A stretch of DNA of 64,000 bases from Nocardia asteroides. GTDB lineage: Bacteria; Actinomycetota; Actinomycetes; Mycobacteriales; Mycobacteriaceae. Made by a program: the position numbers and the translations under genes. The stretch is taken from assembly GCF_900637185.1 (NCBI RefSeq), contig NZ_LR134352.1, positions 3,834,001 through 3,898,000 on the forward strand. Reading direction: 5' to 3'. Under the pieces are notes generated by a model. It saw only the letters and a list, made by a program, of their open reading frames with translations. It was not told where the DNA came from and did no database searches. This document shows positions 4,506-29,849 of this stretch, in pieces. The first letter of the stretch is position 1. Every line of letters begins with the position of its first letter.

Positions 4506-5099
4506 ATGGTTTGGCTCGTTCTGCTCGGTTCCGCGCTCGGCGCCCTCCTCGTCGCCGTGGTCGGTGGTCTCGTCGTTCTCATCGTGCTGCAGCGCCGCGC
4601 CGCACGTCTGCTCGGCGCCGCGACCCCGCCGGCCGACGACCGGACGATCCGTCTGCTCGAGTCTCGGCGGCAAACCTTCCAGATGTCGGGAGAGCAGTAC
4701 TTCGCAGCGATGCCCTGGCAAGTGTGGTCCGCCCTCGAAGAGGGTGCGTTCACCTGGATTCCGATGATCGGTGGGGTCACCTACCGTGATCACGATCGTG
4801 GTCCGGGAACGGTGCGCACGCTCGACGCCATCGTCTTCGCGGCCGCCGAACAGGTGACCCGCCGCGATTCGTGCACCCGGCTGAGCGTGGTCGGCATCGA
4901 GACCTCGATCCCGCTGCTGGTCAAGTCCTACATCATGGACTTCCGGCTCACCGAAACCTCCGCGGGCGCCACCGTGCTGCGGTGGACGATCGCCGGCCGA
5001 CCGGCCGTCTTCGCCTTCGTCCCGCTGAGCTGGACCGCGGTCTTCATTCGCCCGTTCGTCCAGGTCGTGCTCAGGAGATGGGCCGGCGACTTCACCTGA
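4506..5099 (+). CDS. SRPBCC family protein with N-terminal membrane anchor
   Basis: A 197-residue protein with one strongly hydrophobic helix at residues 2-30. A domain of about 150 residues follows, with the alternating strands and the 'PWQVWSALEEG' opening common in SRPBCC (START/Bet v1-like) lipid- or polyketide-binding proteins. It follows the mce operon by 43 bases on the same strand and may be read with it, which would suit handling of a hydrophobic ligand near the membrane. No catalytic motif is visible. Ligand unknown. Confidence 0.7.
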   Translation: MVWLVLLGSALGALLVAVVGGLVVLIVLQRRAARLLGAATPPADDRTIRLLESRRQTFQMSGEQYFAAMPWQVWSALEEGAFTWIPMIGGVTYRDHDRGPGTVRTLDAIVFAAAEQVTRRDSCTRLSVVGIETSIPLLVKSYIMDFRLTETSAGATVLRWTIAGRPAVFAFVPLSWTAVFIRPFVQVVLRRWAGDFT

Positions 5100-7639: not shown

Positions 7640-9700
7640 ATGTCGAGTGATGTCGTGGATGTGACCGCGGAATTCGCAGTCGCGAGGCAAGCGCTGTGGG
7701 AGGTTCTGCTGGATCCGCAGAGCTATCCGCGGCTGTGGACGGGCATCGGGGGATGCGAACGGGTGAGCGGTCCCGAGGGCGACACCATATGGCAGGTCCG
7801 CATCGGCGACGCGGCGGCCGGAGTGCGCAGGGTCGCGCTGTCTGTGCGGATCGGCCGCTGGTACGAGAGTTTCGAGCTGAACAACGCGGAGTCGGGCAGC
7901 TTCGCGCTGATCCGGCTCGCGGGTGATCAGCAGCGAACCACCGTGAGTGTCACCGTCTTCGCCGCGCCCCGGCTGCATCCGGCGCTGGAGCGGGTACGCG
8001 CCGCCGAGACCGTCCGATGGATCAAGGCCGGGTTGCGGCGAGCCGTCGACGTGGTGCGTGGGGCGCGGACATCGGTGGTGGGCAACGGTGATCGGGCGCC
8101 GATCCGCCGAAAGTCCGAGCTGGTGCGCTGGATGGCGAGCTCCGGGCTGGTCGCGCCGCCGGTGACTACGGCGCGGCAACTGCGGTCGCTGTATCGGTGG
8201 GGTTTCAACCTGGCCGGTGGCTATGCGGCGGGCGCCGCGCACAGTCCCGACCAGCTCGCCCTGATCGACACCGTCAGTACGGCCACTTTCGCCGAGACCG
8301 ACAAGCGCACCACCGCGCTGGCCGGGGCGATGTACGAGGTCGGGTTGCGTGCGGGCGACGCGATCGGGCTGCTCGCCGCCAACCACTGCGGCATGGTCGA
8401 GACGATGGTCGCGGCGGGCAAGCTCGGCGTCGATGTCGCGCTGCTGAACGCCGGTCTGTCGGGCAGGCGGATCGAGGAGATCGTGCAGCGCCACCGGCTG
8501 TCGGCATTGTTCGTCGACACCGGGCTGAACCATCTCGTGCAGTATCTGCACGACGGCGTGCCGCGCTTCGTCACCGACGACCTGCCCGCGGACCCCGCCC
8601 GGATCACCATCGAGGATCTGATCGCCATGGGCCATAAGGAGTTTCCGGTCCCCACCCTGCCCGGGCGGCAGATCGTGCTCACCTCGGGAACCAGCGGTAC
8701 CCCGAAAGGTGCGAGGCGCCCGCATCCGAAGGGATTCGACACCCTGGTCGCGCTGTTGTCGCGGATCCCGATCGAAGTGGGCAGCACGATGATGATCCCG
8801 GCGCCGCTGTTCCACACCTGGGGGCTCTCGGCACTGCAGCTGAGCACCGCGGTGCGCGCCACCGTCGTGCTCGCGCAGGGCTTCGACGCCGAGGAATGCC
8901 TGCGTCAGGTCGCCGAACATCGGGTGCGCACCCTCATCGCGGTGCCCACCATGATCCAGCGCCTGGTCGACCTGCCCGACGCGGTGCGCACTCGCCACGA
9001 CCTGAGCAGTCTGCGGCACGTCATCAGCTGCGGCGCACCGCTGGTCGCGGCGACGGTGGATCGCTTCCTGCGGGACTACGGCGACGTGCTCTACAACCTC
9101 TACGGCTCCACCGAGGTCTCCTGGGCCAGTGTCGCGGCCCCCGAGGACCTCCGGGCCGCCCCGACCACCGCGGGCAGACCCCCGCTGGGCACCCGCATCG
9201 CGATCCTCGGCGCCGACAATCAGCCGGTGCCGAGAGGGGTGACCGGACGGATCTTCGTCGGCAATCACATGCTGTTCGACGGCTACGTCAACGACACCCC
9301 GCCCGAGGAAGCCGACGGCATGCTGAACACCGGCGATCTGGGCTACCTCGACGCGGAGGGCAGGCTGTTCGTGGCGGGACGCGACGACGAGATGATCATC
9401 TCCGGTGGCGAGAACGTCTTCCCCCGTCCGGTCGAAGAGGCATTGTCGTATCTGCCGCAAGTCAGCGATGTTGCGGTGGTCGGGGTATCGGATCGGGAGT
9501 TCGGTCAGCGGCTGGCCGCCTTCCTCGTCAAACACGAAGGCTCCAGCCTCGACTCGGACATGGTGCGCACCTACGTCCGCAACCGGCTCAGCCGCTTCTC
9601 GGTCCCGCGCGACGTCACCTTCCTCAACTCGCTGCCCCGCGGGGAAACCGGCAAGGTGCTCAAGCGGCTGCTCGTCGACCCCGCGGGGTTCGTCAACTGA
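7640..9700 (+). CDS. SRPBCC domain fused to AMP-dependent acyl-CoA synthetase
   Basis: A 686-residue two-domain protein. About residues 5-140 resemble an SRPBCC (polyketide cyclase/START-like) domain; the rest is an ANL-superfamily ligase that activates an acid as acyl-AMP and then acyl-CoA. Visible ligase motifs are TSGTSGTPKGA (ATP loop), NLYGSTEVSW, NTGDLGYLDAEGRLFVAGR, GGENVFPRPVE, and the catalytic Lys in GETGKVLKRLL. I chose ATG 7640 (GAGAGAGG upstream) over starts at 7529/7535, which add a low-complexity Arg/Gly stretch. The following PucR regulator is encoded convergently. Substrate unknown; probably a fatty or aromatic acid. Confidence 0.82.
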   Translation: MSSDVVDVTAEFAVARQALWEVLLDPQSYPRLWTGIGGCERVSGPEGDTIWQVRIGDAAAGVRRVALSVRIGRWYESFELNNAESGSFALIRLAGDQQRTTVSVTVFAAPRLHPALERVRAAETVRWIKAGLRRAVDVVRGARTSVVGNGDRAPIRRKSELVRWMASSGLVAPPVTTARQLRSLYRWGFNLAGGYAAGAAHSPDQLALIDTVSTATFAETDKRTTALAGAMYEVGLRAGDAIGLLAANHCGMVETMVAAGKLGVDVALLNAGLSGRRIEEIVQRHRLSALFVDTGLNHLVQYLHDGVPRFVTDDLPADPARITIEDLIAMGHKEFPVPTLPGRQIVLTSGTSGTPKGARRPHPKGFDTLVALLSRIPIEVGSTMMIPAPLFHTWGLSALQLSTAVRATVVLAQGFDAEECLRQVAEHRVRTLIAVPTMIQRLVDLPDAVRTRHDLSSLRHVISCGAPLVAATVDRFLRDYGDVLYNLYGSTEVSWASVAAPEDLRAAPTTAGRPPLGTRIAILGADNQPVPRGVTGRIFVGNHMLFDGYVNDTPPEEADGMLNTGDLGYLDAEGRLFVAGRDDEMIISGGENVFPRPVEEALSYLPQVSDVAVVGVSDREFGQRLAAFLVKHEGSSLDSDMVRTYVRNRLSRFSVPRDVTFLNSLPRGETGKVLKRLLVDPAGFVN

Positions 9701-9745
9701 ACGGTGGACCGAGCACGGCAGGCCGCCGAGAGCACCGGGCATCGG

Positions 9746-11008
9746 TCAGCAGGCTTGCGCGGCCACCGCGGTCTGGTCGCGGTGATGGTGCGGTGTCTCG
9801 TCGATGTCACCGGCCAGTCGGGCAACCGCGGCCGACCGCAATCGCCACAGGTCTCCGGCCTTGCGGGGATCCAGCCCCGTCGCTCGGGCGATCCGTTCGA
9901 GGCGGTAGTCGACGGTGTTGGGGTGCACGTGCAAGACCTTGGCCGTGCTCAGGCGGGTGGCTCGGGTGTCGAGGTGGGCCAGCAATGTCTCCAGCAGCAC
10001 GGGTTGTTCCTCGAGGGGATCCAGTACGGCCGCGAGCCGGTCGCGGGCGGCCCCTGGCCGGGTCAGCTGGTATTCCAGGGAAAGGCCCTCGAACGAGTGC
10101 AGGCCCATGCGGCGCAGCCGGCGCATGAGTTGGAGCATCGCGTCCACATGCTCGATCGCCGCGGGGATGTAGTCGATGGCCGCGGGAAGGAAGGTGGCGC
10201 GGATCGGGGCCTGCGCCGCGACGGTCATCGCCTCGACGAACCGTTCGGCGTCGGTGGTGCCCAGCCGGGGTGCGGGGACGAGCAGGGTTCCACCGCGCGC
10301 GGTCACCAGCGCCAGGGCGTTGTCGCCGCACCAGCGGGTGATCTCCGCCCTCACGCGGTGCACCTTGCGGTGGGCGACGATCTGGGGATCGAGACGCGGG
10401 TCCGACTCGTCGACGTGGGGAGCGATCTCGACGGCGAAGACCAGGTAGTTCGCGGCCAGCTGGATTCCGCACTCGCGGGCCATGGCAGGCGTCGCGGAAC
10501 CGACCATCACCGCCGAGACCAGGGTTTCGACCGATTCCCTTCGGCTACTGCGTGTTTCGTCGAGGTAGGCCTGTGAGATCGTCACGGCGAGCCGATCGGC
10601 GATCTCGACGAACACCCGGGCGACCGCCGCCACGGGCGGGTACTCCTCGTCGGGGCGCGCCCGCGTGACGACGTGCTCGAACGCCCAGATCAGCCCTTCG
10701 TGCACCGCGTGCTGCATCGCGTCGACCGCGACGCCCGCGTGGGCCCACTCCAGCGCGCAGGCGCGCACGTCGGTGAGTGGTTTCCGGTGGTCGAGGCCGT
10801 TCAGCAGGTCGGCGGCCACCTCCCGGCACGCGCTCACCATGGCGATGACATCGCGGCGCAACGTCGGCAACGGCACTGTCGCGCCCAGTCGGCTGGTACG
10901 GACGAAGCGATCCATGATCTGTCCGGCGATCGTGGATACGGCGGGTAGGCCATCAGCTATCCGACGAGACGTCGCCGTGGCGTCACGCGCGGTGGCCTTG
11001 TTCATCAT
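9746..11008 (-). CDS. PucR-family transcriptional regulator
   Basis: A 420-residue protein. It has an N-terminal helical sensor region (about 1-170), a central GGDEF-like region, and a C-terminal PucR-type helix-turn-helix (about 360-400: TRLSTAKVLHVHPNTVDYRLERIARATGLD). Of three clustered ATGs I chose 11008, because AGGGAG at 11015-11020 is then six bases away; the ATG at 11014 would touch it. It converges on the acyl-CoA synthetase and is divergent from the cyclase gene at 11454. Palindromes in that gap (11101-11152) are possible binding sites. Confidence 0.82.
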   Translation of the reverse strand: MMNKATARDATATSRRIADGLPAVSTIAGQIMDRFVRTSRLGATVPLPTLRRDVIAMVSACREVAADLLNGLDHRKPLTDVRACALEWAHAGVAVDAMQHAVHEGLIWAFEHVVTRARPDEEYPPVAAVARVFVEIADRLAVTISQAYLDETRSSRRESVETLVSAVMVGSATPAMARECGIQLAANYLVFAVEIAPHVDESDPRLDPQIVAHRKVHRVRAEITRWCGDNALALVTARGGTLLVPAPRLGTTDAERFVEAMTVAAQAPIRATFLPAAIDYIPAAIEHVDAMLQLMRRLRRMGLHSFEGLSLEYQLTRPGAARDRLAAVLDPLEEQPVLLETLLAHLDTRATRLSTAKVLHVHPNTVDYRLERIARATGLDPRKAGDLWRLRSAAVARLAGDIDETPHHHRDQTAVAAQAC

Positions 11009-17512: not shown

Positions 17513-18946
17513 TCAGTCCGGAGGTTCGGTCGATGCGCGGGTGGCCGATGTTCCCGGCATCGTCGCCGCGGCGGCGAACAGTGCGACCGACGACACCAGC
17601 AGGGTGACGAACACCAGATGGATCGCTCCGGCGAGTTCGCCGGGATCCGGCCGGTCGACGGCGCCGACCCGCGCGTTGACGAGCGCGCCGAACACCGCGA
17701 CGCCCACCGCGCTGCCGATCGAGCGGGCGAACATGGTCGCCGAGGTCACCACTCCGCGTTCGGACCACGCCGCCTCGGTCTGCGCGGCGATGAGGGTGGG
17801 ATTGGCGACCAGACCCATGCCCGCGCCGATCACGAAACAGGTGCCCGCGAGCAGCAGTGGGCTCGCGTGCGGGCCGATCGGCAGCAGGGCGGCGCAGCCC
17901 AGAATCGCGATCGCGCTGCCGATCAGGGCTGTGGTGCGGAAGCCGAGGAGCAGGTAGAACCGGCCCGCCTGGGAGGCGGTGATGGGCCAGCCGATGGTCA
18001 GCGCGCCCACGGCCAGGCCGGCGATCGTGGCACTGGTGCCGAGGACGCCCTGCGCGAAGGTCGGCACATAGGAGGTGAGGCCTAGCACGATCGCGCCGAT
18101 CAGCATCGACACCGCGCTGGCCGCGACCACCACCCGCCGGGTGAAGATCCACAGCGGCAGAATCGGATTCGCGGCCCGGCGCTCGGCGAACCCGAAGACC
18201 ACCAGCACCGCCACGCTGCCGCCGAACAGCCCGAGGCTGACGGGGGAGTACCAGGCCCATGACCGGCCGCCCTCGAGCAAGGCCAGGATCAGCGCGCCCG
18301 CGCCCACGGTGAGCAGGGCCGCGCCGCTGTAGTCGACCCGTCCGCGCGCACCGCGCGACGCCGACTCGGTGAAGTTGCGCATCAGCATGACCGCGGCCAG
18401 TGCCGCGAGGGGGAGGTTGACCAGGAAGATCCAGCGCCAGCTGGCGAAATCGGCGAAGGCGCCGCCGATCAGCGGGCCCAGCACCGCCGAACCGGCCCAC
18501 ACGCCCGCCAGATAGCCCTGCACCTTGGCGCGTTCGGGCAGCGTGTACAGGTCGCTCGCGATGACCATGGTCATCGGCTGGACCGCGCCCGCGCCGATGC
18601 CCTGGATCGCGCGGAACACGATGAGCGCCACCATGTTCGACGCCAGGCCGCACAGCAGCGAGCCCAGCGCGAACACCGCGATCCCGAACAGGAGCACCGG
18701 TTTGCGCCCGACGGTGTCGGCGATCTTGCCGTAGATCGGCACCGTCACCGCCTGGGCCAGCAGGTAGATCGAGAACAGCCAGGGGAACAGCGCGAACCCG
18801 CCGAGGTCGGCGGTGATGGTGAGGACGCCGGTCGCGATGATCGTCGAGTCCAGCGCCACCAGGCTGGTCGACATCATCAGCGCGGCCAGCACGGCCCCGC
18901 GGTCGGAGCGCAGCCCGACGGACGGGCGCGCGGTTTCGGTCGCCAC
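17513..18946 (-). CDS. MFS drug/metabolite exporter (DHA2-like)
   Basis: A 477-residue multi-pass protein with about 14 hydrophobic segments. It carries the MFS loop motif GKIADTVGRKPVLL after helix 2 and the motif C region VWAGSAVLGPLIGGAFAD, as in EmrB/QacA-type proton antiporters. GTG 18946 is nine bases after the IclR stop, so it is the second gene of an iclR-mfs unit divergent from the organosulfur operon. It could export a toxic intermediate or product of that pathway, or be unrelated; the substrate cannot be read from sequence. Confidence 0.83.
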   Translation of the reverse strand: MATETARPSVGLRSDRGAVLAALMMSTSLVALDSTIIATGVLTITADLGGFALFPWLFSIYLLAQAVTVPIYGKIADTVGRKPVLLFGIAVFALGSLLCGLASNMVALIVFRAIQGIGAGAVQPMTMVIASDLYTLPERAKVQGYLAGVWAGSAVLGPLIGGAFADFASWRWIFLVNLPLAALAAVMLMRNFTESASRGARGRVDYSGAALLTVGAGALILALLEGGRSWAWYSPVSLGLFGGSVAVLVVFGFAERRAANPILPLWIFTRRVVVAASAVSMLIGAIVLGLTSYVPTFAQGVLGTSATIAGLAVGALTIGWPITASQAGRFYLLLGFRTTALIGSAIAILGCAALLPIGPHASPLLLAGTCFVIGAGMGLVANPTLIAAQTEAAWSERGVVTSATMFARSIGSAVGVAVFGALVNARVGAVDRPDPGELAGAIHLVFVTLLVSSVALFAAAATMPGTSATRASTEPPD

Positions 18947-18954
18947 GAACGGTG

Positions 18955-19704
18955 CTAGGCCGCGGCGGCGAAGGTCGCGGCGATCTCGGCGGCGGTCACC
19001 TTGGCGAGTTCGACGAAGAACGGCACCCGCTCGTCGATCATCAAGGTGACCGGGCCGCGCACGCCGAGCGCGAAGCGGCACCGCCCCTGGGGGTCGAGCA
19101 CGGGCAGGCCGATGGTGCGGAAGCCCGGGTCGAGTTCGCGGTCGTTGAAGGCGTAGCCGCGGGCGCGGGTGGCGGTGAGTTCGGCGCGCAGCTCGGCGGC
19201 GTTGGAGACCGAGCGCTCGGTGCCCTCTTCGTAAGGGAGGGAGCGCAATTCGTCGTCGTCGACCTCGGACCAGGCGAGCAGTGCCTTGCCCAGCGCGCTG
19301 GCGTGCAGCGGCAGCCGCACACCTTGGAGTTCGTGTCCGTCGGACTCGCGCCAGCGGCTGGTGCCCAGCAGCACGGCGTGGATGCCGTGGCGGGTGGCGA
19401 CCGAGCAGTTGGCGCCGGTGGTGGCGGCGAGCTGCTCGAGGGCGGGCTCGGCGAGATAGATCTTGTGCTGGCGGTAGGCGATCTGCCCGTATTCGGCCAG
19501 GGCGCCGCCCATCCGGTAGCGGCTCGAGGTGGCGTCCTTCTCCAAAAAGCCCGCCTGGACGAGGGCGGCGAGCAGGCGGTGGGTGGTGCTGACCGCCAAG
19601 CCCTGGGCGCGCGCGACCTCGGAGACCCCGCGCTCCTCGCCGCCGCGGAAGCAATCGAGTGCCGACAGGGCCCGGGTCACGGTCTGCACGCTGGAGGTCT
19701 CCAC
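18955..19704 (-). CDS. IclR-family regulator of the organosulfur island
   Basis: A 249-residue protein with an N-terminal winged helix-turn-helix (about 10-65: RGVSEVARAQGLAVSTTHRLLAALVQAGFL) and a C-terminal IclR effector-binding domain with LGKALLAW and FNDRELDPGFRTIGLPV. I chose GTG 19704; the frame continues upstream through palindrome sequence that should be non-coding. It is divergent from the substrate-binding protein at 19918, and two copies of a TTTCC-N7-GGAAA palindrome lie between them, so it probably controls both directions. Confidence 0.85.
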   Translation of the reverse strand: METSSVQTVTRALSALDCFRGGEERGVSEVARAQGLAVSTTHRLLAALVQAGFLEKDATSSRYRMGGALAEYGQIAYRQHKIYLAEPALEQLAATTGANCSVATRHGIHAVLLGTSRWRESDGHELQGVRLPLHASALGKALLAWSEVDDDELRSLPYEEGTERSVSNAAELRAELTATRARGYAFNDRELDPGFRTIGLPVLDPQGRCRFALGVRGPVTLMIDERVPFFVELAKVTAAEIAATFAAAA

Positions 19705-19748
19705 ACCGCCGACGGTAACACAGCCCCGCACCCGGAAATCGGCCGCTC

Positions 19749-19765
19749 TTTCCGATATTCGGAAA
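19749..19765. promoter_or_regulatory. Palindrome, candidate IclR operator 1
   Basis: TTTCCGATATTCGGAAA is an almost perfect 17-bp palindrome, 45 bases upstream of the iclR start. Form TTTCC-N7-GGAAA resembles sites bound by IclR-type dimers. A second copy lies 76 bp away (centre to centre) at 19825-19841. Confidence 0.6.
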
Positions 19766-19824
19766 CTTGCAGCGCCGATTCCTGCGAAAGCACCCATAGA
19801 TCGCCGCCGGAAGGCCTGTCAAGC

Positions 19825-19841
19825 TTTCCGATCCCTGGAAA
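19825..19841. promoter_or_regulatory. Palindrome, candidate IclR operator 2
   Basis: TTTCCGATCCCTGGAAA repeats the TTTCC-N7-GGAAA form of site 1 and shares its first eight bases. It lies 77 bases upstream of the substrate-binding-protein start. Two sites in one divergent gap suggest cooperative binding or looping. Confidence 0.6.
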
Positions 19842-19917
19842 GACATACCTCGTTCGAGGTCCTGCTCACTCCTACGCTGCGAAAGCACCTCCCGCCCTTC
19901 CCCGAACAGGAGCCCCG

Positions 19918-20955
19918 ATGTCCCGCAGGCTGCCGGCCTTCACGCGGATCGTTCTCGCGATCGCCCCCGTCGTCGCCCTCGTCGCGGCCTGTGGCTCCGG
20001 CTCCACGCCCGAGAACAGTGCCGAGGCCTCGTTCGTGCTCAAGGTGACCGACCCGGGCAACACCGGCCCGCTGGCGGTCGGCAAGCGCGACGGCACCTTC
20101 GACGCCGCCCTGGCCCCGCTGGGCGCGAAGATCCAGTGGGTCAACACCACACCCGGTTTCAGCTCGAACCTGAAACTGTTCAACACCAAGGAACTCGACG
20201 TCTCCGGCGCCGCGTTCAGCCCGGTGGTCGGCGCGCTGTCCAAGGACGTCGGCGTGAAGATCGTCGCCGTGGCCGATCCGGCAGGCCAGGACCAGAGCGG
20301 GATCATCGTCAGCCCCGAATCCGGGGTGACCTCGGTGGCCGGGCTGGTCGGCAAGCGGATCGCGGTCAACCCGGCGGGCAAGGGCGAGTACATCACCCTG
20401 AAAGCCCTGGCGCAGGCCGGGATCCCGGCCGACAAGGTCACCCGGGTACCGCTGCAGCAGAAGGACGCGGCCTCGGCGTTCGCCACCGGCAAGGTCGACG
20501 CGTGGGCCTCGTTCCTGGTGCCCTACCAGGAGGCCAAGGCCGCGGGTGGGCGCGAGATCGCCACCGAGAAGTCGATCGGCTCCAACGACAACACCGTCGT
20601 GGTGTTCCGCACCGAGGTGCTCGAGCAGCGGCCCGACGTCGCCGCCAAGTACCTGGAAGTGCTGCAGGGACTCACCGCGAAGCAGAAGGCCGCACCCGCC
20701 GAGTTCGAGAACGTCTTCGAGAAGACCGGCCCGCGCGCCCTCACCGGTGACCGCCTCGCCGACGCCGTCCGGGTGGGCAGCGAGGTGACCGTGCCGCGCC
20801 TGCCCGCCGAGTCCGACGCCGCCGACCTGGCCGACGTGGTGAACACCTTCGCCGACAACGGCGTGATCACCCGCCGGATCACCGCCGCCGACATCTTCTA
20901 CGACCTGCGCTCCAAGCTCACCCCCGAACAGCTCGCCGCGCTGAAGGAAAACTGA
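19918..20955 (+). CDS. Sulfonate/nitrate-type ABC substrate-binding lipoprotein
   Basis: A 345-residue lipoprotein: signal peptide with Cys25 (LVAAC), then an SsuA/TauA/NMT1-type two-lobe binding domain (PSGITS-like loop: VTSVAGLVGKRIAVNPAGKGEYITLKAL). ATG 19918 has AGGAG at ideal spacing. It is the first gene of a run of eight closely spaced genes to 27492 and would deliver substrate to the permease and ATPase that follow. Neighbouring monooxygenases and a desulfinase point to an organosulfur ligand such as a sulfonate or sulfone. Confidence 0.85.
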   Translation: MSRRLPAFTRIVLAIAPVVALVAACGSGSTPENSAEASFVLKVTDPGNTGPLAVGKRDGTFDAALAPLGAKIQWVNTTPGFSSNLKLFNTKELDVSGAAFSPVVGALSKDVGVKIVAVADPAGQDQSGIIVSPESGVTSVAGLVGKRIAVNPAGKGEYITLKALAQAGIPADKVTRVPLQQKDAASAFATGKVDAWASFLVPYQEAKAAGGREIATEKSIGSNDNTVVVFRTEVLEQRPDVAAKYLEVLQGLTAKQKAAPAEFENVFEKTGPRALTGDRLADAVRVGSEVTVPRLPAESDAADLADVVNTFADNGVITRRITAADIFYDLRSKLTPEQLAALKEN

Positions 20956-20956
20956 C

Positions 20957-21772
20957 ATGACCACCCTCGCACTGGCGCCACCCCGCGCGCGGGTCACCCG
21001 GCAGCGGCCGCGGTGGCTCTCGCTGGGCCTGCGCGCCGCCCTGCCCGTCGCCGTCGTGCTGGCGTGGTGGGCGGGATCGGCGAGCGGGGCCATCTCCCCG
21101 CGCGTCATCGCCGGGCCGGGCGCGGTCTGGTCGGCGTTCCTGGAACTGCTCGACAGCGGGCAGCTGGTCGACTTCGCCCTCGCCTCGTTCGGCCGCGCCG
21201 CCGCCGGTGTGGCGCTGGGAGTCTCGGTGGGACTGATCCTCGGACTGCTGTCGGGGCTGTCCGCGCTCGGTGAGGAACTCGTCGACTCGACCATGCAGAT
21301 CGTGCGCGCCGTGCCCTTCCTCGCCCTGGTGCCGCTGTTCATCTCCTGGTTCGGCATCGACGAGCTGTACAAGGTGCTGCTCATCGCGGTGGCCACCACC
21401 GCGCCGATGTACGCCTACACCTATCTCGGGGTGCGCAATGTCGACCGCAAGATGGTCGAGGCGGCCCGCAGTTTCGGGCTCGGCGGGACCCGGCTGGTCG
21501 TCGAGGTGATCGTGCCCGCCGCGCTGCCCGGCATCCTGATGGCGCTGCGGGTGTGCCTGTCGATCAGCATCACCGGCCTGATCGCCGCCGAGCAGGTGGG
21601 CACCCAGCAGGGCGTCGGCTACCTGGTGACGCTGGCCCAGGAATACAACCGCACCGACTACATGGTGCTGTGCGTGGTCCTCTACGCGTTGCTCGGTCTG
21701 GTGTTCGACGCACTCGTGCGGCTCGCGGAACGCTACGCGATGCCCTGGCGCAAGCAGGTGGCGATCCGATGA
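20957..21772 (+). CDS. ABC transporter permease, SsuC/TauC type
   Basis: A 271-residue inner-membrane protein with six predicted helices and the EAA loop contacting the ATPase (MVEAARSFGLGGTRLVVEVIVPAALPGILMAL). The sequence is of the sulfonate/nitrate/taurine permease family. It starts one base after the binding-protein stop region (ATG 20957) and overlaps the ATPase gene by four bases. It should form a homodimeric channel for the imported organosulfur compound. Confidence 0.88.
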   Translation: MTTLALAPPRARVTRQRPRWLSLGLRAALPVAVVLAWWAGSASGAISPRVIAGPGAVWSAFLELLDSGQLVDFALASFGRAAAGVALGVSVGLILGLLSGLSALGEELVDSTMQIVRAVPFLALVPLFISWFGIDELYKVLLIAVATTAPMYAYTYLGVRNVDRKMVEAARSFGLGGTRLVVEVIVPAALPGILMALRVCLSISITGLIAAEQVGTQQGVGYLVTLAQEYNRTDYMVLCVVLYALLGLVFDALVRLAERYAMPWRKQVAIR

Positions 21773-22530
21773 CGACGACAACGGCAGCGCCCGCCCGGCC
21801 CGCCGAACAGCAGGCGCCGGTGGCGGTCTCGATCACCGGGTTGCGCAAGGCCTTCGGCGACAAGACGGTGCTCGACGGCGTTGACCTGAGCATCCGCCGC
21901 GGCGAGTTCGTGGTGCTGCTCGGGCCCAGCGGCACTGGCAAAACCACCCTGCTGCGCCTGCTCACCGGCCTCGAGGTCCCCGACGCGGGCGAGGTGCTGG
22001 TGCCGGCCCGGCGCACCACCGTCTACCAGGAGCCGCGGCTGATCCCGTCCAAGCGGGTGCTGGCCAATGTGACCATCGGGCTGCGCCGCGGCAAGACCCA
22101 GCGCGAGGCCGGGCTGCGGGCACTGCGTGAAGTCCACCTCGACGGCAAGGCCGGGCAGTGGCCCGCGACCCTGTCCGGCGGCGAGGCCCAGCGCGCCGCC
22201 CTGGCCAGGGCGCTGGTCCGGGAACCGGAACTGCTGCTGCTCGACGAGCCGTTCGCCGCCCTCGACGCGCTGACCCGGCTCCAGATGCAGGACCTGGTGG
22301 GCGATCTCGTCGCCCGGCACCGGCCCGCCGTCCTCATGGTCACCCACGACGTCGACGAGGCGATCCGGCTCGCCGACCGGGTGATCATCCTCGATCGCGG
22401 CCGGTTCGCCGTGGACGAGGCGATCGACCTGCCCCATCCGCGCGACCACGCGGCCACCGAAACCCTCCGCTACCGCACGCAATTCCTCGCCCAGCTCGGC
22501 GTCGGAGCACACCCAAGGAGTACGTCATGA
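21769..22530 (+). CDS. ABC transporter ATP-binding protein, SsuB type
   Basis: A 253-residue ATPase. Walker A is GPSGTGKTT (about residue 50), the signature LSGGEAQRAALARAL, Walker B LLLLDEPFAALD, and the H-loop VTHD. The Q-loop is YQEPRL, as in SsuB/TauB. The start is ATG 21769 in an ATGA overlap with the permease, and its own stop overlaps the start of the desulfinase. It powers uptake by the preceding permease. Confidence 0.9.
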   Translation: MTTTTAAPARPAEQQAPVAVSITGLRKAFGDKTVLDGVDLSIRRGEFVVLLGPSGTGKTTLLRLLTGLEVPDAGEVLVPARRTTVYQEPRLIPSKRVLANVTIGLRRGKTQREAGLRALREVHLDGKAGQWPATLSGGEAQRAALARALVREPELLLLDEPFAALDALTRLQMQDLVGDLVARHRPAVLMVTHDVDEAIRLADRVIILDRGRFAVDEAIDLPHPRDHAATETLRYRTQFLAQLGVGAHPRSTS

Positions 22531-23552
22531 CCGAAACCCTGTGGTACACCCGCTGCCCCGTGCCGACCGCCAGCGGTCTGGCGCACAGCCTCGGCTGGCT
22601 CGGTGCGACCGCGGCGAGCGCCGGCCTCGAATTCGGTGTCCTGCAGGACGCGGGTCCCGAACTCGCGGGCCACCACTTCCTGCACGACCTGCCCGGCCTC
22701 GTCCGTGAGGGCGGCAACGTTCCCGCGCTGGCCGCCCGTGCGCAGGGTTCGCCGACGCGGCTGATCGGGCTGACCTGGATCGACGAATCCCAGGCCGTGC
22801 TGGTCGGGCCCGACTCGCCGGTCACCGAGGCCGCGCAGCTGGCGGGCCTGCGGGTCGGGGTGCCCGCGTGGGCCCAGGACCAGGCCCGCAGCTTCCCCCG
22901 GGCGATGGCTCTGCACGGCTTCGCCAACGCGCTGCGCCCGGCGGGGCTGACCCTGGCCGACGTCCGGGTCACCGAACTCGAGGTCGAGCGGGATCCGCAG
23001 GTGCGCACCGAGATCCAGTCCGCTCGCCGGTCCACCACCTGGGGCGTCGCCGAACTGCTCGACGGCAAGGTCGACGCGATCTACGTCAAGGGTGCCCGCG
23101 CCCAGGAGGTGGCCAGGGAACACGGCCTGCGCGTCGCGGTCGACCTGGACGCCTCGGCCACCAAGCACCTGCGCGTGAACAACGGCACGCCGCGCCCGAT
23201 CACCGTGCACGCCGACCTGCTCGACGCCCGCCCGGACGTGGTGATCGGCTTCCTGACGCAGAGTCTGCGCGCCGCCGACTGGGCCGCGGGCGACCTCGAC
23301 GGCGTTCGCGCGGTGCTGCAGCGCGAAACCCTGTCCGGCCCCGAGGGTGTCGTCGCCGCTTACGGCGCCGACTTCCATCGCGGCCTGCACCCGTCGCTGA
23401 CCGACGAACGTGTCGAGCTGCTCGGCGTGCAGAAGCAGTTCCTCTACACCCACGGTTTCCTGGCCGCCGACTTCGACCTCGAATCCTGGGTAGCCCTTGA
23501 GCCGTTGGAGCGTGCCCAGGAGATCGTCGCCGCCGAGAAGGTGCCCGCATGA
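22527..23552 (+). CDS. DszB-like sulfinate desulfinase
   Basis: A 341-residue cytoplasmic protein with the binding-protein fold of DszB, the desulfinase that removes sulfite from 2'-hydroxybiphenyl-2-sulfinate. The catalytic residues fit: Cys10 in YTRCPVPTA (DszB Cys27), His50 in HHF (His60) and Arg60 before GG (Arg70), with the same ten-residue His-Arg spacing. There is no signal peptide. ATG 22527 has AAGGAG upstream and overlaps the ATPase stop. Two flavin monooxygenase genes follow, so it probably acts on their sulfinate product and releases sulfite. Overall similarity to DszB looks modest, so the substrate is probably different. Confidence 0.78.
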   Translation: MTETLWYTRCPVPTASGLAHSLGWLGATAASAGLEFGVLQDAGPELAGHHFLHDLPGLVREGGNVPALAARAQGSPTRLIGLTWIDESQAVLVGPDSPVTEAAQLAGLRVGVPAWAQDQARSFPRAMALHGFANALRPAGLTLADVRVTELEVERDPQVRTEIQSARRSTTWGVAELLDGKVDAIYVKGARAQEVAREHGLRVAVDLDASATKHLRVNNGTPRPITVHADLLDARPDVVIGFLTQSLRAADWAAGDLDGVRAVLQRETLSGPEGVVAAYGADFHRGLHPSLTDERVELLGVQKQFLYTHGFLAADFDLESWVALEPLERAQEIVAAEKVPA

Positions 23553-24649
23553 GCGAGTTCGTCTGGAAGCTGCCCAGCCGTGGCGACGGCCGCCGCGCCC
23601 GGCCGGACCTGCGCGGGCGCGGCGGGTTCGGCCCGGACCGGCCCGCGACGGCGACCACCGATGTGCGGCCCGGCCGGTTCGGTCCGTTCGACGACCTGGC
23701 CCAGATCGTCGACGCGGCGGAACTGAGCGGATTCGACGGAGTGCTCGCCCCCTACGACCCGCTCGGTGAGGAATCCTGGATCGTGGCGGGCGCGGCCCTG
23801 CGCGCCACCCGCTACGCGCGGGTCACCGTCGAATTCCAGCCCGGCTTCGGCACTCCGGTGTACGCGGCCAAACTGTCCTCGACCCTGCAACGGCACTCGG
23901 CCGGACGGCTGAACTGGCAGCTCGCCGTGGACACCGACGCCGAGGACGCGTACGCCAGGGGCGACCGCGTCGACGGCGACGACCGCTACGCGCGTGCCGC
24001 GGAGTTCCTCACCGTCGCGCGCGGCGTGTGGAACGAGAACGAGGTCGGTGCCGCCGGATTCGCCGGCACCGGCTTCGACTACGCCGGACAGTACTTCGAC
24101 GTCATCGACGGCGGGTTCCGCGGCATCCTGTCCGGCCTGCCCTTCCCGACGGTGCACCTGAGCGGTACCTCGCCCGCCGCGCTGGCGCTCGCGGCCGCGC
24201 ACGGTGACGTGCACGTGTTCGGTGAGGAACCCGACGGAATCTCGCGCGCCGCCGCCGAACTCGGCGAGCGTGCCGCGGCGGCCGGCAGGCAGGTCCGTGT
24301 CGCACTGGACCTGCCGATCATCGCCAGGGAGACCGAGGACGAAGCCTGGGCGCGGGTGCACCGGCAGTGGGACGAGCTGGGCCGCCCCGACTCCGCGGAC
24401 CGCCACGCCCTCGGCGACGGGCGCTGGGCCGGCTTCGACGCGCTCGGCTACGACCGGCGCATCGGCCTGGTCGGCAGTTACGAGCAGGTGGCCCGGCAGC
24501 TGGCGGTCTACGAGGTCGCCGGCATCGACACCTTCGTGCTGTCCGGTCATCCCCACATCGAGGAGATCCACCGGGCCGGGGAACACCTGCTGTTCCTGGC
24601 CGACCCGGCCGGCCGCACCCTCACCACCGCGCAGGAGCTCACCGCATGA
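23549..24649 (+). CDS. LLM-class flavin-dependent monooxygenase (SsuD-like), first copy
   Basis: A 366-residue bacterial-luciferase-like TIM-barrel protein of the alkanesulfonate monooxygenase group. It uses FMNH2 from a separate reductase (none is visible in the window) and O2 to cleave a C-S bond or oxidise a sulfone. Family segments include VEFQPGFGTPVYAAKL, RLNWQLAV, the GDDRYARAAEFLTV helix and RIGLVGSYEQVARQL. It overlaps the desulfinase stop and the next monooxygenase start by four bases each. It differs from the second copy throughout, so the two may act on successive steps. Confidence 0.83.
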   Translation: MSEFVWKLPSRGDGRRARPDLRGRGGFGPDRPATATTDVRPGRFGPFDDLAQIVDAAELSGFDGVLAPYDPLGEESWIVAGAALRATRYARVTVEFQPGFGTPVYAAKLSSTLQRHSAGRLNWQLAVDTDAEDAYARGDRVDGDDRYARAAEFLTVARGVWNENEVGAAGFAGTGFDYAGQYFDVIDGGFRGILSGLPFPTVHLSGTSPAALALAAAHGDVHVFGEEPDGISRAAAELGERAAAAGRQVRVALDLPIIARETEDEAWARVHRQWDELGRPDSADRHALGDGRWAGFDALGYDRRIGLVGSYEQVARQLAVYEVAGIDTFVLSGHPHIEEIHRAGEHLLFLADPAGRTLTTAQELTA

Positions 24650-25815
24650 CCATCGACGTCTACTGGCGCATCGGCATGGAAGGCGACCACGCCTCGATGC
24701 GCACCCCGCGCCGCTACAACCGCGGCAACGCCGGCGGTTACGGGCCGGGCAATATCGCGCCCGCCATCCGCGGCGGCGCGCTGGACGCCTACAGCTATCT
24801 CGACCACGTCGCCGCCGTCGCCAAGGCCTCCGAATCGGCGGGGTTCCTCGGCGGGCTGCTGCCCTCGTTCCCTGTGACCGACGACCCGTGGGCGGTTGCC
24901 GCCGCCCTGGCCGCCGAGACCACCACCTACCGGTTCATGGTCGCCTTCCAGCCCGGCTTCCTGCACCCGGTGCAGGCGGCCCGGATGTCGGCGAGCCTGC
25001 AGCGCGCGACCGGCGGCAGGCTGGTCTACAACATCATCAGCGGCGGCGGGGGACCGGCGCAGCTGTGGTGGGGCGACAAGGTCGCCCACGACGACCGCTA
25101 CGCCCGCACCAGCGAATTCCTCGACGTCCTGCGCGGGGTATGGGACGGCGAACCCTACGACCACGACGGCCGCTTCTTCCGCACCGAGGGCGCCGCGCTC
25201 CCACCCGGCCTGGCCGGGCAGCCGTTCCCGGAGGTGTACTTCTCCGGCTCCTCGGGTGCCGCCGTGTCCGCGGCGGGCCGCCACGCCGACTACTACCTGT
25301 CCTGGCTCGAGCCGTTCGCCGACCTGCGCGCCAAGTTCGACGGCGTCCGCCGCAATGCCGAAAAACTGGGTCGCACACCGAAGTTCGCGGTGCGGATCGA
25401 CATCGTCGCCCGGCACACCGAGGAGGCGGCCTGGGCCGAGATCGAGAAGGGCTGGGCCTTCGTCGACCGCGATGCCGCCAACCGCGCCGCCCAGGGCGAC
25501 TCGGTGGGCGCGGCCAGGATCACGGGCTGGGTGCCCGAAACCATCACCGGCTACCGCGATCTGGAAGTCCAGCCCAACGTCTGGTGCGGCTTCAGCCTGA
25601 TCCGCGGCGGACCGGCTTTCGGCCTGGTCGGCAGCTACGAACAGGTCGCCCAGCGCCTCGACGAGCTCATCGAACTCGGCGTCGACGCCTTCATCCTCGC
25701 GGGCAACCCGCACCTGGAGGAGGCCTACCGGGTCGGTGAGGAAGTACTGCCGCTGCTCGGCCGCTCCCGGCTCACCACCCCCGCCACCGACACCGTCCTC
25801 GCGACGGCCCGATAA
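24646..25815 (+). CDS. LLM-class flavin-dependent monooxygenase (SsuD-like), second copy
   Basis: A 389-residue alkanesulfonate-monooxygenase-type protein. It keeps MVAFQPGFLHPVQAARM, GRLVYNIISGGG, WWGDKVAHDDRYARTSEFLDVLRGVW and FGLVGSYEQVAQRLDELIELGVDAFILAGNPHLEE, all typical of SsuD. It resembles true SsuD more closely than the first copy does. ATG 24646 overlaps the preceding stop. Two paralogues beside a desulfinase suggest a route that oxidises a sulfonate or sulfone stepwise and finally releases sulfite. Confidence 0.85.
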   Translation: MTIDVYWRIGMEGDHASMRTPRRYNRGNAGGYGPGNIAPAIRGGALDAYSYLDHVAAVAKASESAGFLGGLLPSFPVTDDPWAVAAALAAETTTYRFMVAFQPGFLHPVQAARMSASLQRATGGRLVYNIISGGGGPAQLWWGDKVAHDDRYARTSEFLDVLRGVWDGEPYDHDGRFFRTEGAALPPGLAGQPFPEVYFSGSSGAAVSAAGRHADYYLSWLEPFADLRAKFDGVRRNAEKLGRTPKFAVRIDIVARHTEEAAWAEIEKGWAFVDRDAANRAAQGDSVGAARITGWVPETITGYRDLEVQPNVWCGFSLIRGGPAFGLVGSYEQVAQRLDELIELGVDAFILAGNPHLEEAYRVGEEVLPLLGRSRLTTPATDTVLATAR

Positions 25816-25831
25816 CCGCAGGAGAATCACG

Positions 25832-26551
25832 ATGACCACCACCGAAACCCGGCTGCCGGAGGCCGTCGCGGCCTTCGCCGAAGCGGCCACCCGCGACGCC
25901 GAGACCGCCTTCCGGGTCTTCCGCGAGACCGGCACCGTCACCGGCAACGGCACCGTCAACTTCGTCGAGCGCGTCCCCGGCGAGGAGATCGCCGTCGCTC
26001 TCAACGAACCGGGCCCCTGGGCGAGCGATCGCACCATCGCGCCGGTGATCGCCACCTTCGACGGAGAGGTGCTCTCCGGCACGGGATCCGCCGGATTCGT
26101 CACCGGCTACGCCAAGGTGTTCCGCGCGCACCCGGAGATCACCTCCGTCGTGCACATCCACACCCCGTGGCTGGGCGGGTGGGCCCAGACCCACCGCACC
26201 CTGCCCATCCGCTACGCCGCCTCCCAGCGCCTGACCCTGTCCCGGGAGATCCCGCCACACATCGACCGCAGCATCGGCGCGGGCGACTTCATCCTGGACA
26301 AGCTCACCACCGACCCGCACCTGGTCGCCATCTTCGAGGCCAACGGCGGCGCCAATGTGATCGGCCGCGCCGGACTGCTGGAGCTGGCCAAGTTCGTCGT
26401 CCTGCTGGAGGAAGGCGCCCAGTACCAGGCGATCGCCGAAACCCTGGGCGGCTCGGTCGAATTCGATCCGTCCAACCTGGCGGTGCAGTGGAGCCGCAGC
26501 GGCCTGGCCGACGAGGCCCGTCGCCTCGGCCTGATCGGAGACGCCCGATGA
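25832..26551 (+). CDS. Class II aldolase/adducin-like protein
   Basis: A 239-residue protein of the class II aldolase fold. The metal-binding HIH is present (His108, His110 in VVHIHTPW), but the position that usually supplies a third His in an N-H-G motif reads ANGGANVIGRAG, so the metal site may be altered. ATG 25832 has AGGAG upstream. Its stop overlaps the next start, keeping it in the organosulfur operon. It could cleave a carbon fragment left after desulfonation or act as an epimerase; the substrate is unknown. Confidence 0.7.
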   Translation: MTTTETRLPEAVAAFAEAATRDAETAFRVFRETGTVTGNGTVNFVERVPGEEIAVALNEPGPWASDRTIAPVIATFDGEVLSGTGSAGFVTGYAKVFRAHPEITSVVHIHTPWLGGWAQTHRTLPIRYAASQRLTLSREIPPHIDRSIGAGDFILDKLTTDPHLVAIFEANGGANVIGRAGLLELAKFVVLLEEGAQYQAIAETLGGSVEFDPSNLAVQWSRSGLADEARRLGLIGDAR

Positions 26552-27492
26552 GCCTGCGCGTCGGCTACTTCCCGCACAACAACTCGCTGTTCGTGCTGCG
26601 GCACCGCGGCATCCTCGAACGCGCGATCCCCGACGTCGAGTGGGTCGACCTGCGCGCGCTGCCGCAGGCAGAACGCGTCGACCCGAAGACCGCGCTGCCC
26701 GGCGAACACTCCGACTGGCTGTTCACCGACGGCGGCTACGACATCATCGGCACCGGCTTCACCCCGCCGCTGACCGCGCTGGCCAACCAGCGCGACATCG
26801 TCTATCTCGGCATCTCCGGGCCGCGCGTGGAGAACGGACGGCTGGTCGCCACCGCGGCGAGCGGCATCACCTCCGCCGCCGACCTGAAGGGCAAGCGAGT
26901 CGGCATCGCGCACGGCTCCTGGCAGACCACGCTGTTGCTGTTCGCCCTCGATCGGGTCGGTCTGACCTGGGCCGACGTCGAGCCGGTCGACGTCGACGTG
27001 CGGGGCGGCGGCTCGGCGCTGCTGTCCGGCGACCTGGACGCCTGGGTCGGCACCTACCCGGGTCTGCGGGAGGTCGAAGCGGCGACCGAACTCACCACCC
27101 TGGTCGACACCGCCTCGGTGTTCAGCCACCCGTCGCTGTGGTTCACCCGCCGCGACCTCGCCGACACCGACCCGGCCGCCGTGCGGGCCGTGCTCGCGGC
27201 GCTGCAGGAATCCGACGCCTGGATCACCGCGAATCCGCGTGCGGCGGCGCGGTATTTCGTCGACGACGCGCACGCGCGTGGCCTGCCCGCCGACCTGGAC
27301 GCCTGGGATGCGGCCCTGCGCGGCCGCCCGTTCGGCGTGCGTCCGGTGAGCGAGGAATTCCTCGACGAACAGCAGCGTGCCGCCGACCTGCTCGCCGCCA
27401 ACGGCCTGCTGCCCCGCACGATCGACGTGCGCTCGGCGGTGCTGCCCTGGGTGGGCGCGGCGGTCAACGAGGCGGAGTCCGCCGCCGTCTGA
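26548..27492 (+). CDS. Binding-protein-fold protein without signal peptide
   Basis: A 314-residue protein that aligns by eye with NMT1/SsuA-type binding proteins (SAADLKGKRVGIAHGSWQTTLLLFALDRVGL) but starts MSLRVGYFPHNN with no signal peptide or lipobox. It therefore probably stays in the cytoplasm, like DszB. There is no cysteine at the DszB position. It may be a cytosolic carrier, a sensor, or an enzyme built on the same fold. It is the last gene of the operon, and a strong hairpin follows. Confidence 0.7.
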   Translation: MSLRVGYFPHNNSLFVLRHRGILERAIPDVEWVDLRALPQAERVDPKTALPGEHSDWLFTDGGYDIIGTGFTPPLTALANQRDIVYLGISGPRVENGRLVATAASGITSAADLKGKRVGIAHGSWQTTLLLFALDRVGLTWADVEPVDVDVRGGGSALLSGDLDAWVGTYPGLREVEAATELTTLVDTASVFSHPSLWFTRRDLADTDPAAVRAVLAALQESDAWITANPRAAARYFVDDAHARGLPADLDAWDAALRGRPFGVRPVSEEFLDEQQRAADLLAANGLLPRTIDVRSAVLPWVGAAVNEAESAAV

Positions 27493-27506: not shown

Positions 27507-27538
27507 CGATGCCCCGGTACCTGGGTACCGGGGCATCG
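27507..27538. terminator. Hairpin ending the organosulfur operon
   Basis: A perfect 15-bp inverted repeat (27507-27521 with 27524-27538, core GCCCCGGTACC) begins 15 bases after the last stop. No T-run follows, which is common for actinomycete terminators. It probably also ends the leftward small gene at 27556. Confidence 0.75.
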
Positions 27539-28964: not shown

Positions 28965-29849
28965 ATGGAGCTGCGTCACGTCCGGTACCTGCTCGCCGTC
29001 GCCGATCACGGGAACTTCACCCGCGCCGCCGAGGCGCTGCACATTTCGCAACCGACGCTGTCGCAGCAGATCAAACAGCTCGAGCGGCTCCTCGGCGTGC
29101 AACTGCTCGATCGGTCCGGTCGCACCGTGCGGCTCACCGACGCCGGTCAGGTGTACGCCGAGCACGCGCGCAACGCGCTGCGGGATCTGGAGGCGGGTGA
29201 ACGCGCCGTGCACGACGTGCAGGACCTGAGCCGGGGTCATCTGCGCGTCGCGATGACGCCGACGATCACCGCCTACCTGATCGGCCCGCTGATGGACCGG
29301 TTCCACCGGGCGCACCCGGATGTCACCGTCGCGGTCACCGAGACGACCCAGGATCGCCTGGAAGAAGACCTGCTCGCCGACGCGATCGACCTCGGCATCG
29401 CCTTCGAGGGCGACCACGCGGCGGGCATCGACGGCACCGCCCTCTACACCGAGGATCTGAGCCTGGTCGTCGGTGCGGGTCACCCGCTCGCCGGTCGATC
29501 GGACCCGCTGCCGATTCAGGACCTCGCGGTGGCGCCGCTGGCCCTGCTGAGCCGGGACTTCGCGACCCGCGTGTACATCGACCGGCACCTGGCCGAATCC
29601 GGTGTCACCCCGCGCATCACGATCGAGGCGAACTCGATCAGCGCGCTCGTGGAATTCACCCGCCGCGGTGTGCTCGGCACCGTCCTGCCCGACGCGATCG
29701 CGCACGCCCATCCTGAGCTGCGCCCGGTGCCCCTCGCGCCGGCGCTGCCGAGCCGCACGGTCGAACTGCTGCGCCGTGGCACGGCCTATCACTCGGCGGC
29801 CGCCCGCGCCTTCACCATGATCGCCCTCGCGCACTCGGCTGAACTATAG
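28965..29849 (+). CDS. LysR-family regulator, CynR-like
   Basis: A 294-residue LysR protein: N-terminal winged helix-turn-helix (residues about 3-60: NFTRAAEALHISQPTLSQQIKQLERLLGVQLL) and a periplasmic-binding-protein-like effector domain. The carbonic anhydrase and cyanase genes lie directly downstream on the same strand, as in cynR-cynT-cynS clusters, so cyanate is the likely inducer. Unlike E. coli, the regulator is in line with the operon, not divergent. Confidence 0.85.
   Translation: MELRHVRYLLAVADHGNFTRAAEALHISQPTLSQQIKQLERLLGVQLLDRSGRTVRLTDAGQVYAEHARNALRDLEAGERAVHDVQDLSRGHLRVAMTPTITAYLIGPLMDRFHRAHPDVTVAVTETTQDRLEEDLLADAIDLGIAFEGDHAAGIDGTALYTEDLSLVVGAGHPLAGRSDPLPIQDLAVAPLALLSRDFATRVYIDRHLAESGVTPRITIEANSISALVEFTRRGVLGTVLPDAIAHAHPELRPVPLAPALPSRTVELLRRGTAYHSAAARAFTMIALAHSAEL

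Follow-up and report, generated by a model that had tools for sequence, protein, structure and literature searches.

Here, we analysed a gene cluster of Nocardia asteroides that lies in a 64,000-nt stretch of its genome (assembly GCF_900637185.1, contig NZ_LR134352.1, positions 3,834,001 to 3,898,000; in the following called the window). The genome comprises 6.98 Mb in a single contig, and genes in the window are numbered by window position. Ten genes were confirmed: eight on the plus strand (19918–27492) and two in divergent orientation on the minus strand, the latter coding for an IclR-family regulator (iclR) and an MFS transporter. The plus-strand series opens with an importer, namely a lipoprotein solute-binding protein (SBP; 19918–20955, matching NMT1 and SsuA_fam), an SsuC-like ABC permease (20957–21772; BPD_transp_1) and an SsuB-like ABC ATPase (21769–22530; ABC_tran). 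These are followed by a DszB-like desulfinase (22527–23552), two luciferase-like monooxygenases with Bac_luciferase matches, LLM1 (23549–24649, of the reduced flavin mononucleotide (FMNH2) type) and LLM2 (24646–25815), a class II aldolase/epimerase-fold protein (25832–26551; Aldolase_II) and an SsuA-fold protein without signal peptide (26548–27492). Neighbouring genes overlap by 4 nt (ATGA) at five junctions and are separated by 1 and 16 nt at the remaining two. Downstream, a perfect 14-bp inverted repeat (27508–27537, plus strand) probably forms a terminator hairpin; its folding z-score is −3.81 and none of 200 shuffled sequences was equally stable. A terminator scan downstream of the operon found none since the hairpin has no T run. 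The analyses presented here indicate that the eight genes very probably constitute a conserved sulfur-starvation operon.

Among 150 Nocardia genomes, in which each gene was counted at its own E-value limit, the DszB-like gene was found in 65, the SsuA-fold gene in 66, LLM1 in 59 and the aldolase-like gene in 54, and all four occurred together in 53. Wherever LLM1 was present, it was located within 3 kb of the DszB-like gene (59 of 59 genomes). The aldolase-like gene lay at most 5 kb from it in 53 of 54 genomes, the exception being a 32% relative in genome G313, and the SsuA-fold gene at most 5.5 kb from it in 61 of 66. Six of the 65 genomes bearing the DszB-like gene hold LLM1 and the SsuA-fold gene without an aldolase-like match at the threshold, and six further ones have a diverged DszB-like gene and neither an aldolase-like nor an LLM1 match at the thresholds. 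A survey of named genome contigs covered the best 80 of 583 confirmed stretches, totalling 1.63 Mb (hereafter named loci). In 76 of these 80 actinobacterial loci, the genes for permease, ATPase, DszB-like protein, LLM1 and LLM2 are consecutive; of the four exceptions, L093 holds the same genes in another order and L092, L096 and L099 hold a different set. LLM2 is followed by the aldolase-like and then the SsuA-fold gene in 48 of the 76 loci and directly by the SsuA-fold gene in 21; in six, iclR stands between LLM2 and the SsuA-fold gene, and L045 reaches the end of its contig. Among the named loci, the aldolase-like gene was not found in those of Actinomadura, Streptosporangium, Nonomuraea, Actinokineospora and Saccharothrix, nor in L030, L031, L037 and L048 (Nocardia) and L060 (Pseudonocardia); it is thus an accessory gene, present in 48 of 80. 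Operon loci were seen in Rhodococcus, Gordonia, Tsukamurella, Williamsia, Amycolatopsis, Actinomadura, Streptosporangium and others, and the closest named DszB-like protein is that of Nocardia sp. GTS18 (92%).

A preliminary description of the locus had proposed eight nearly overlapping plus-strand genes facing an iclR-MFS pair, which agrees with the gene calls and junctions. The eight-gene set it put forward is present in the window and its order recurs, but membership varies, with the aldolase-like gene often missing. It had also named separation of these genes without co-conservation as an observation that would speak against it; checked across the 150 Nocardia genomes and the 80 named loci, the set held together, and on this basis we rejected an assembly of the genes by chance.

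In 72,556 plasmid records, three aldolase-like matches were obtained (two in Burkholderia, one in Sphingobium). DszB-like genes are present in each of these records, at a distance from the aldolase-like gene of about 0.1 kb in Sphingobium and of about 7 kb in both Burkholderia records. The region on the plasmid of Sphingobium sp. TomTYG65 (L017, 925–14314) represents a proteobacterial equivalent of the operon: besides SsuD-like genes and one aldolase-like gene, it contains three DszB-like genes, a nitroreductase gene and genes of the SsuABC type, next to a regulator of the Fis type. Another Nocardia genome retains just a remnant (G319:C7:123037-123918, L116), namely part of LLM2 and an SsuA-fold gene interrupted by two TGA stops.

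The operon proteins are poor in sulfur-containing amino acids. With start residues excluded, Cys and Met together account for 0.72% of the residues in the eight proteins, compared to 2.17% in the background, for which a simple codon-usage script had called 273 proteins in twenty stretches of 20 kb of this genome. A value as low as that of the operon was reached neither by any of 20,000 sets of eight drawn at random nor by any of 136 contiguous runs, the lowest of which stood at 1.28%; in a scan of the window the four lowest eight-protein runs all overlap the operon. LLM1, the aldolase-like protein and the SsuA-fold protein contain neither Cys nor Met, the DszB-like protein has one Met and one Cys, the latter in its active site, and the sole Cys of the SBP is that of its lipobox (...LVAAC). 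Ordinary contents were found for the IclR regulator (2.15%), the MFS transporter (2.94%) and the permease (2.96%). Orthologs entirely free of Cys and Met amounted to 73 of 74 for the SsuA-fold protein, 46 of 48 for the aldolase-like protein and 51 of 74 for LLM1 (48–80 rows per gene, once hits covering less than 75% of the query, containing stops or N, or falling below set identity floors had been removed). Eight luciferase-family places elsewhere in the genome, read on the strand of the match, range from 0.31% (SfnG) to 3.03%; the family is therefore not free of Cys and Met by nature, yet its members can be low. In a proteome study of Rhodococcus qingshengii IGTS8, low Cys/Met content was likewise noted for proteins made under sulfate starvation (PMC8557817). 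On plasmid pla_1 of Burkholderia arboris (L142), a GroEL-like open reading frame of 546 aa, named by eye (9174–10814, minus strand), has no Cys and no Met beyond its start; genes of the aldolase-like, DszB-like and LLM2-like kinds are found a few kb away, and the frame is possibly that of a sulfur-free chaperonin for sulfur starvation.

By sequence, DszB was the only relative of the DszB-like protein in the PDB at E ≤ 0.1 (2de2, E = 1e-22). Cys10, His50 and Arg60 of the window protein align with Cys27, His60 and Arg70 of DszB, which we take to be the catalytic residues. All three are invariant in 20 aligned homologs and also in 80 rows composed of the window protein, 77 named loci and two plasmid loci. 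As judged by eye in the alignment, the N-termini carry no signal peptide, as expected for a cytosolic enzyme.

Profile scores place both monooxygenases in the SsuD branch, though far below the cut-off of SsuD itself (TIGR03565, 518.2 bits; LLM1 155.6, LLM2 272.4). The cut-offs of SfnG (TIGR04021, 382.95 bits; LLM1 83.4, LLM2 142.5) and of the DszA branch (TIGR03860, 279.7 bits; LLM1 47.3, LLM2 91.1) were not reached either. We take the SsuD site to consist of His11, Cys54, Arg226, His228, Arg297 and Tyr331 in E. coli numbering; E. coli SsuD served as reference, and counts include the window protein, with gaps counted as such. LLM2 keeps Arg226 in 77 of 78 rows and Arg297 in 76, while His228 is replaced by Asp in 76 of 78 and Cys54 by Thr in 77. 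In LLM1, Arg226 is found in 17 of 77 rows and Arg297 in none (59 Gly, 18 gap), and Pro and Gly occupy the positions of His228 (66/77) and Cys54 (75/77). According to this alignment, neither enzyme keeps the full SsuD site and LLM1 keeps no residue of it reliably, a trait that LLM1 shares with SfnG. Two enzymes of the same genome served as controls. An SsuD-like enzyme at 4572999 keeps Cys54, Arg226, His228, Arg297 and Tyr331 and has Tyr for His11, with a score (435.9 bits) that is itself under the SsuD cut-off. The true SfnG (629.3 bits) has Asn, Phe, Asn and Phe at the positions of Arg226, His228, Arg297 and Tyr331. The region of this SfnG (442548–445948 of the contig) also holds a flavin reductase gene about 2 kb off and likely represents a separate dimethylsulfone system. 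No flavin reductase gene is part of the operon; five Flavin_Reduct genes are located elsewhere in the genome. For MsuD, R225 and R296 are assigned to the methanesulfonate site and H10 and H227 to a second shell (PMC8234197); equating these positions with the SsuD numbers is our own reading. Since LLM2 retains both arginines and His228 and Cys54 are replaced, it probably binds an anion, though not in the manner of SsuD.

The importer subunits likewise stay under their NCBIfam cut-offs (SBP against SsuA_fam 116.8/163.5, permease against SsuC 211.2/347, ATPase against SsuB 229.8/395 bits) and may nonetheless function as an SsuABC-type system. As it has no signal peptide, the SsuA-fold protein is probably cytosolic; its alignment for folding comprised the window protein and 40 of the 69 listed loci. 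For the aldolase-like protein, the alignment for folding comprised the window protein and 45 of 120 listed homologs, with P0231 (garbled in the middle) and the plasmid-derived L017 row left out. The predicted model shows a class II aldolase/epimerase fold (predicted local distance difference test score 93.3). In FucA, we take His92, His94 and His155 to bind the metal and Glu73 to be the catalytic acid. The alignment of the metal site, which included ten of 46 aldolase-like sequences, has both His92 and His94 kept and Gly in place of His155 in all ten rows. E. coli FucA, AraD and the distant Nocardia relative in G313 retain this third His. Across all 46 sequences, His108, His110 and Gly172 are invariant. 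The Glu73 position is F, G or a gap in all ten rows, in a part where the alignment is loose (AraD has D, the G313 relative I). Read in this way, the metal site is changed, with the HxH motif kept, the third His turned into Gly and the catalytic Glu lost.

Control of the operon points to the divergent regulator gene (18955 to about 19704/19731, minus strand), whose product exceeds the cut-offs of both HTH_IclR (52.2 bits, cut-off 22) and IclR_C (87.2 bits, cut-off 24). iclR adjoins the operon or sits inside it in many named loci. A whole-genome pattern count revealed the palindrome TTTCC-N7-GGAAA four times in 6.98 Mb, with two copies between iclR and the operon (O1, 19749–19765; O2, 19825–19841). 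The other two are located at contig positions 29508–29524 and 6793470–6793486. The reversed pattern does not occur in the genome, and TTTCC-N7-GGAAA was absent from 100 shuffles of the window. The named loci contain 51 exact sites in 38 loci, every one 2.69–3.09 kb upstream of the DszB-like gene; 45 lie inside extracted iclR-SBP stretches, one (L022) just outside and five in loci without an extracted stretch. Two rearranged control patterns were not found in the 80 named loci. Of the 45 divergent iclR-SBP stretches, 33 hold an exact site, and with one mismatch allowed, 44 hold at least one and 38 at least two. We regard the palindrome as a candidate operator and infer that the IclR regulator binds to it and answers to an effector. 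The start of iclR is likely GTG at 19731 or 19704; ATG at 19797 is disfavoured because the conserved operator would then fall inside the gene. A promoter scan of the iclR-SBP region found none.

Downstream of iclR, the MFS gene (17513–18946, minus strand) codes for a drug-efflux-type, DHA2-like transporter. The 25 listed of its 62 NCBIfam matches are transporters, mostly efflux MFS, and every one is under its cut-off. Its open frame extends to 19888, as given in the preliminary description, and the most likely protein start is 18946. The gene is probably not part of the sulfur unit, and we rejected it as an operon partner because its Cys+Met content is not depleted and only 11 of the 80 named loci (L020–L030) have it next to iclR.

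Part of the operon family is already visible in published data. In the proteome table for R. qingshengii IGTS8 (log2 fold change > 2, P < 0.05, glucose equal in both conditions), IGTS8_peg4799 (SsuA), 4801 (SsuB), 4802 (SsuA/DszB), 4804 (SsuD) and 4806 (SsuA) are listed as increased on dibenzothiophene compared to sulfate and labelled as alkanesulfonate transporter and sulfur acquisition (PMC8557817). The gene order in R. qingshengii IEGM 1359 (L061) would yield these names at positions 1, 3, 4, 6 and 8, and IGTS8_peg4799–4806 is apparently the orthologous operon. As dibenzothiophene amounts to sulfate starvation for IGTS8, the table shows induction and not a substrate. A functional description of the pathway was not found in the accessible open-access literature, including the available text of PMC7661421, PMC3868597, PMC11852219, PMC9426449 and PMC8234197.

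Compared to known systems, the operon shares with the dsz (4S) operon of IGTS8 (DszABC) a DszB-type desulfinase with the same Cys, His and Arg, an FMNH2-dependent monooxygenase upstream of the sulfinate step and a reductase encoded elsewhere. It differs in having no DszC, which is of the acyl-CoA-dehydrogenase type, in monooxygenases of the SsuD instead of the DszA branch, and in having its own importer, iclR, aldolase-like and cytosolic SsuA-fold genes. Identity with dsz was rejected since no operon protein is of the acyl-CoA-dehydrogenase type and TIGR03860 scores are far under the cut-off. ssuEADCB also combines an SsuABC-type importer with a luciferase-like monooxygenase, whereas the present operon lacks ssuE, does not conserve the SsuD site and contains a desulfinase and two monooxygenases. 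The sfn/msu route (SfnG-MsuC-MsuD) likewise employs luciferase-like monooxygenases stepwise, and LLM1 and the SfnG of this genome both lack the SsuD site residues; however, the SfnG cut-off is unmet, and the fate of the sulfinate would be hydrolysis by a DszB-type enzyme and not oxidation by MsuC. In bdsABC of Gordonia terrae C-6, which is induced on benzothiophene, a desulfinase gene also lies beside monooxygenase genes; unlike the operon described here, it consists of three genes including one likened to DszC (PMC3868597).

On balance, we consider it somewhat more likely than not that the operon imports an organosulfur anion, cleaves its C-S bond oxidatively to a sulfinate and releases sulfite by a DszB-type step. 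When sulfate becomes short, the IclR-family repressor would be released from the two TTTCC-N7-GGAAA sites and all eight genes would be transcribed as one message. The importer of the SsuABC type would take up the organosulfur anion. LLM2, together with LLM1 where present, would then oxidise the compound and cleave the C-S bond with FMNH2 supplied by a reductase whose gene lies outside the operon. The resulting organic sulfinate would be hydrolysed by the DszB-like enzyme (Cys10/His50/Arg60) to sulfite for cysteine synthesis, in what is the presumed order of steps. The aldolase-fold protein may handle the carbon product of certain substrates and would therefore be optional, and the cytosolic SsuA-fold protein may act on or sense the imported compound. 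The preliminary description had suggested sulfur scavenging under local IclR control. Domain matches, the DszB relation, Cys/Met depletion and the conserved order bear out the former; the IclR domains and the palindromes support the latter. Its family names are backed by Pfam/NCBIfam-type matches and the DszB structure match. 'SsuD-like' holds for fold and branch of the monooxygenases, but not for their scores and sites. The role of a 'carbon-chain enzyme' is putative, and the aldolase-like protein no longer has one metal ligand and the catalytic Glu. Its statement that no such pathway is described stands as far as function in the accessible literature is concerned, but a fitting Rhodococcus operon had already been listed as induced (PMC8557817). 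The operon is wider and better defined than then supposed.

Several points weigh against the proposed route or limit it. We know of no substrate or activity for any gene of the operon family and of no sulfur effector for its IclR regulator, and regulators of this family often answer to carbon compounds. DszB acts on an aryl sulfinate, freeing sulfite from 2'-hydroxybiphenyl-2-sulfinate; for a bulky aromatic substrate, the need for an SsuABC-type importer would not be evident, and a scheme that only releases sulfur leaves no place for the aldolase-like protein. The permease is not poor in Cys and Met, LLM2 only mildly so (percentile 20), and a low content (0.94%) is likewise seen in E. coli SsuA, so the depletion is partly common to related families. 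LLM1 is missing at E ≤ 1e-50 in six Nocardia genomes; in each of the three that were inspected, the cluster is rearranged and includes a weak LLM1-like gene, with no aldolase match. The Microbispora loci (L092, L096, L099) surround the DszB-like gene with other genes, and their aldolase matches reach just 26–28%. The DszB-like gene is seldom seen outside its own clades (within the order, 7 of 298 genomes, including its own genome and one weak match at E 2e-11), and the SsuA-fold protein was found at E ≤ 1e-45 in two of 296 genomes of the phylum, its own included. The assignment of the IGTS8 operon rests on species, names and numbering, and positions 4800, 4803 and 4805, by order permease, LLM1 and aldolase, do not appear in the published table (PMC8557817).

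The locus could also be regarded as a diverged alkanesulfonate (ssu) operon, in which LLM2 desulfonates sulfonates with direct formation of sulfite; the DszB-like protein and the one without signal peptide would then be spare binding proteins. Importer and LLM2 are indeed closest to Ssu families, and the arginines retained in LLM2 are those that belong to the methanesulfonate site in MsuD (PMC8234197). This explanation appears unlikely to us in view of a DszB-like protein with invariant Cys, His and Arg and no signal peptide, the unreached SsuD and SsuA/B/C cut-offs, the exchange of His228 and Cys54 throughout nearly all LLM2 rows and the separate SsuD-like enzyme of the genome, whose site is intact except for His11. 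An ordinary ssu operon was rejected, as cut-offs are unmet and the SsuD site is not conserved.

A different role is conceivable for the SsuA-fold protein. In NrtC and CmpC of cyanobacterial nitrate and bicarbonate importers, a regulatory domain that binds substrate on the cytosolic side shuts down the ATPase, and by analogy the SsuA-fold protein could be a regulatory subunit of the importer. We regard this as possible, if somewhat doubtful; it is compatible with the proposed desulfinase route because the remaining steps are identical. Finally, the IclR family, the MFS neighbour and the aldolase-like gene would suit a carbon-catabolic operon under an IclR repressor from which sulfur release is incidental. 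The Cys/Met depletion, the dispensable aldolase-like gene and the induction of the presumed Rhodococcus counterpart by the sulfur source at equal glucose (PMC8557817) make this very improbable.

Returning to the route via a DszB-type desulfinase, we tentatively suggest that the operon may add one more type to the known kinds of organosulfur desulfurisation (Ssu, Tau, Sfn/Msu and Dsz). Such a sulfone or sulfonate route would end in a DszB-type desulfinase and involve two enzymes that have so far escaped recognition: a cytosolic SsuA-fold enzyme, which would be a second importer binding protein recruited to catalysis beside DszB within one operon, and an aldolase-fold metalloenzyme with rebuilt metal site. 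Selection would have kept both of these and LLM1 devoid of sulfur amino acids. The Cys/Met count offers a simple, annotation-free sign of sulfur-starvation genes and places the aldolase-like and cytosolic SsuA-fold genes within sulfur function, while the operator candidate makes the regulator directly testable. A presumed member of the operon family resides in the best studied fuel-desulfurising strain. The operon would stand for a way of drawing sulfur from organic matter that is widespread among soil actinobacteria and has been overlooked.

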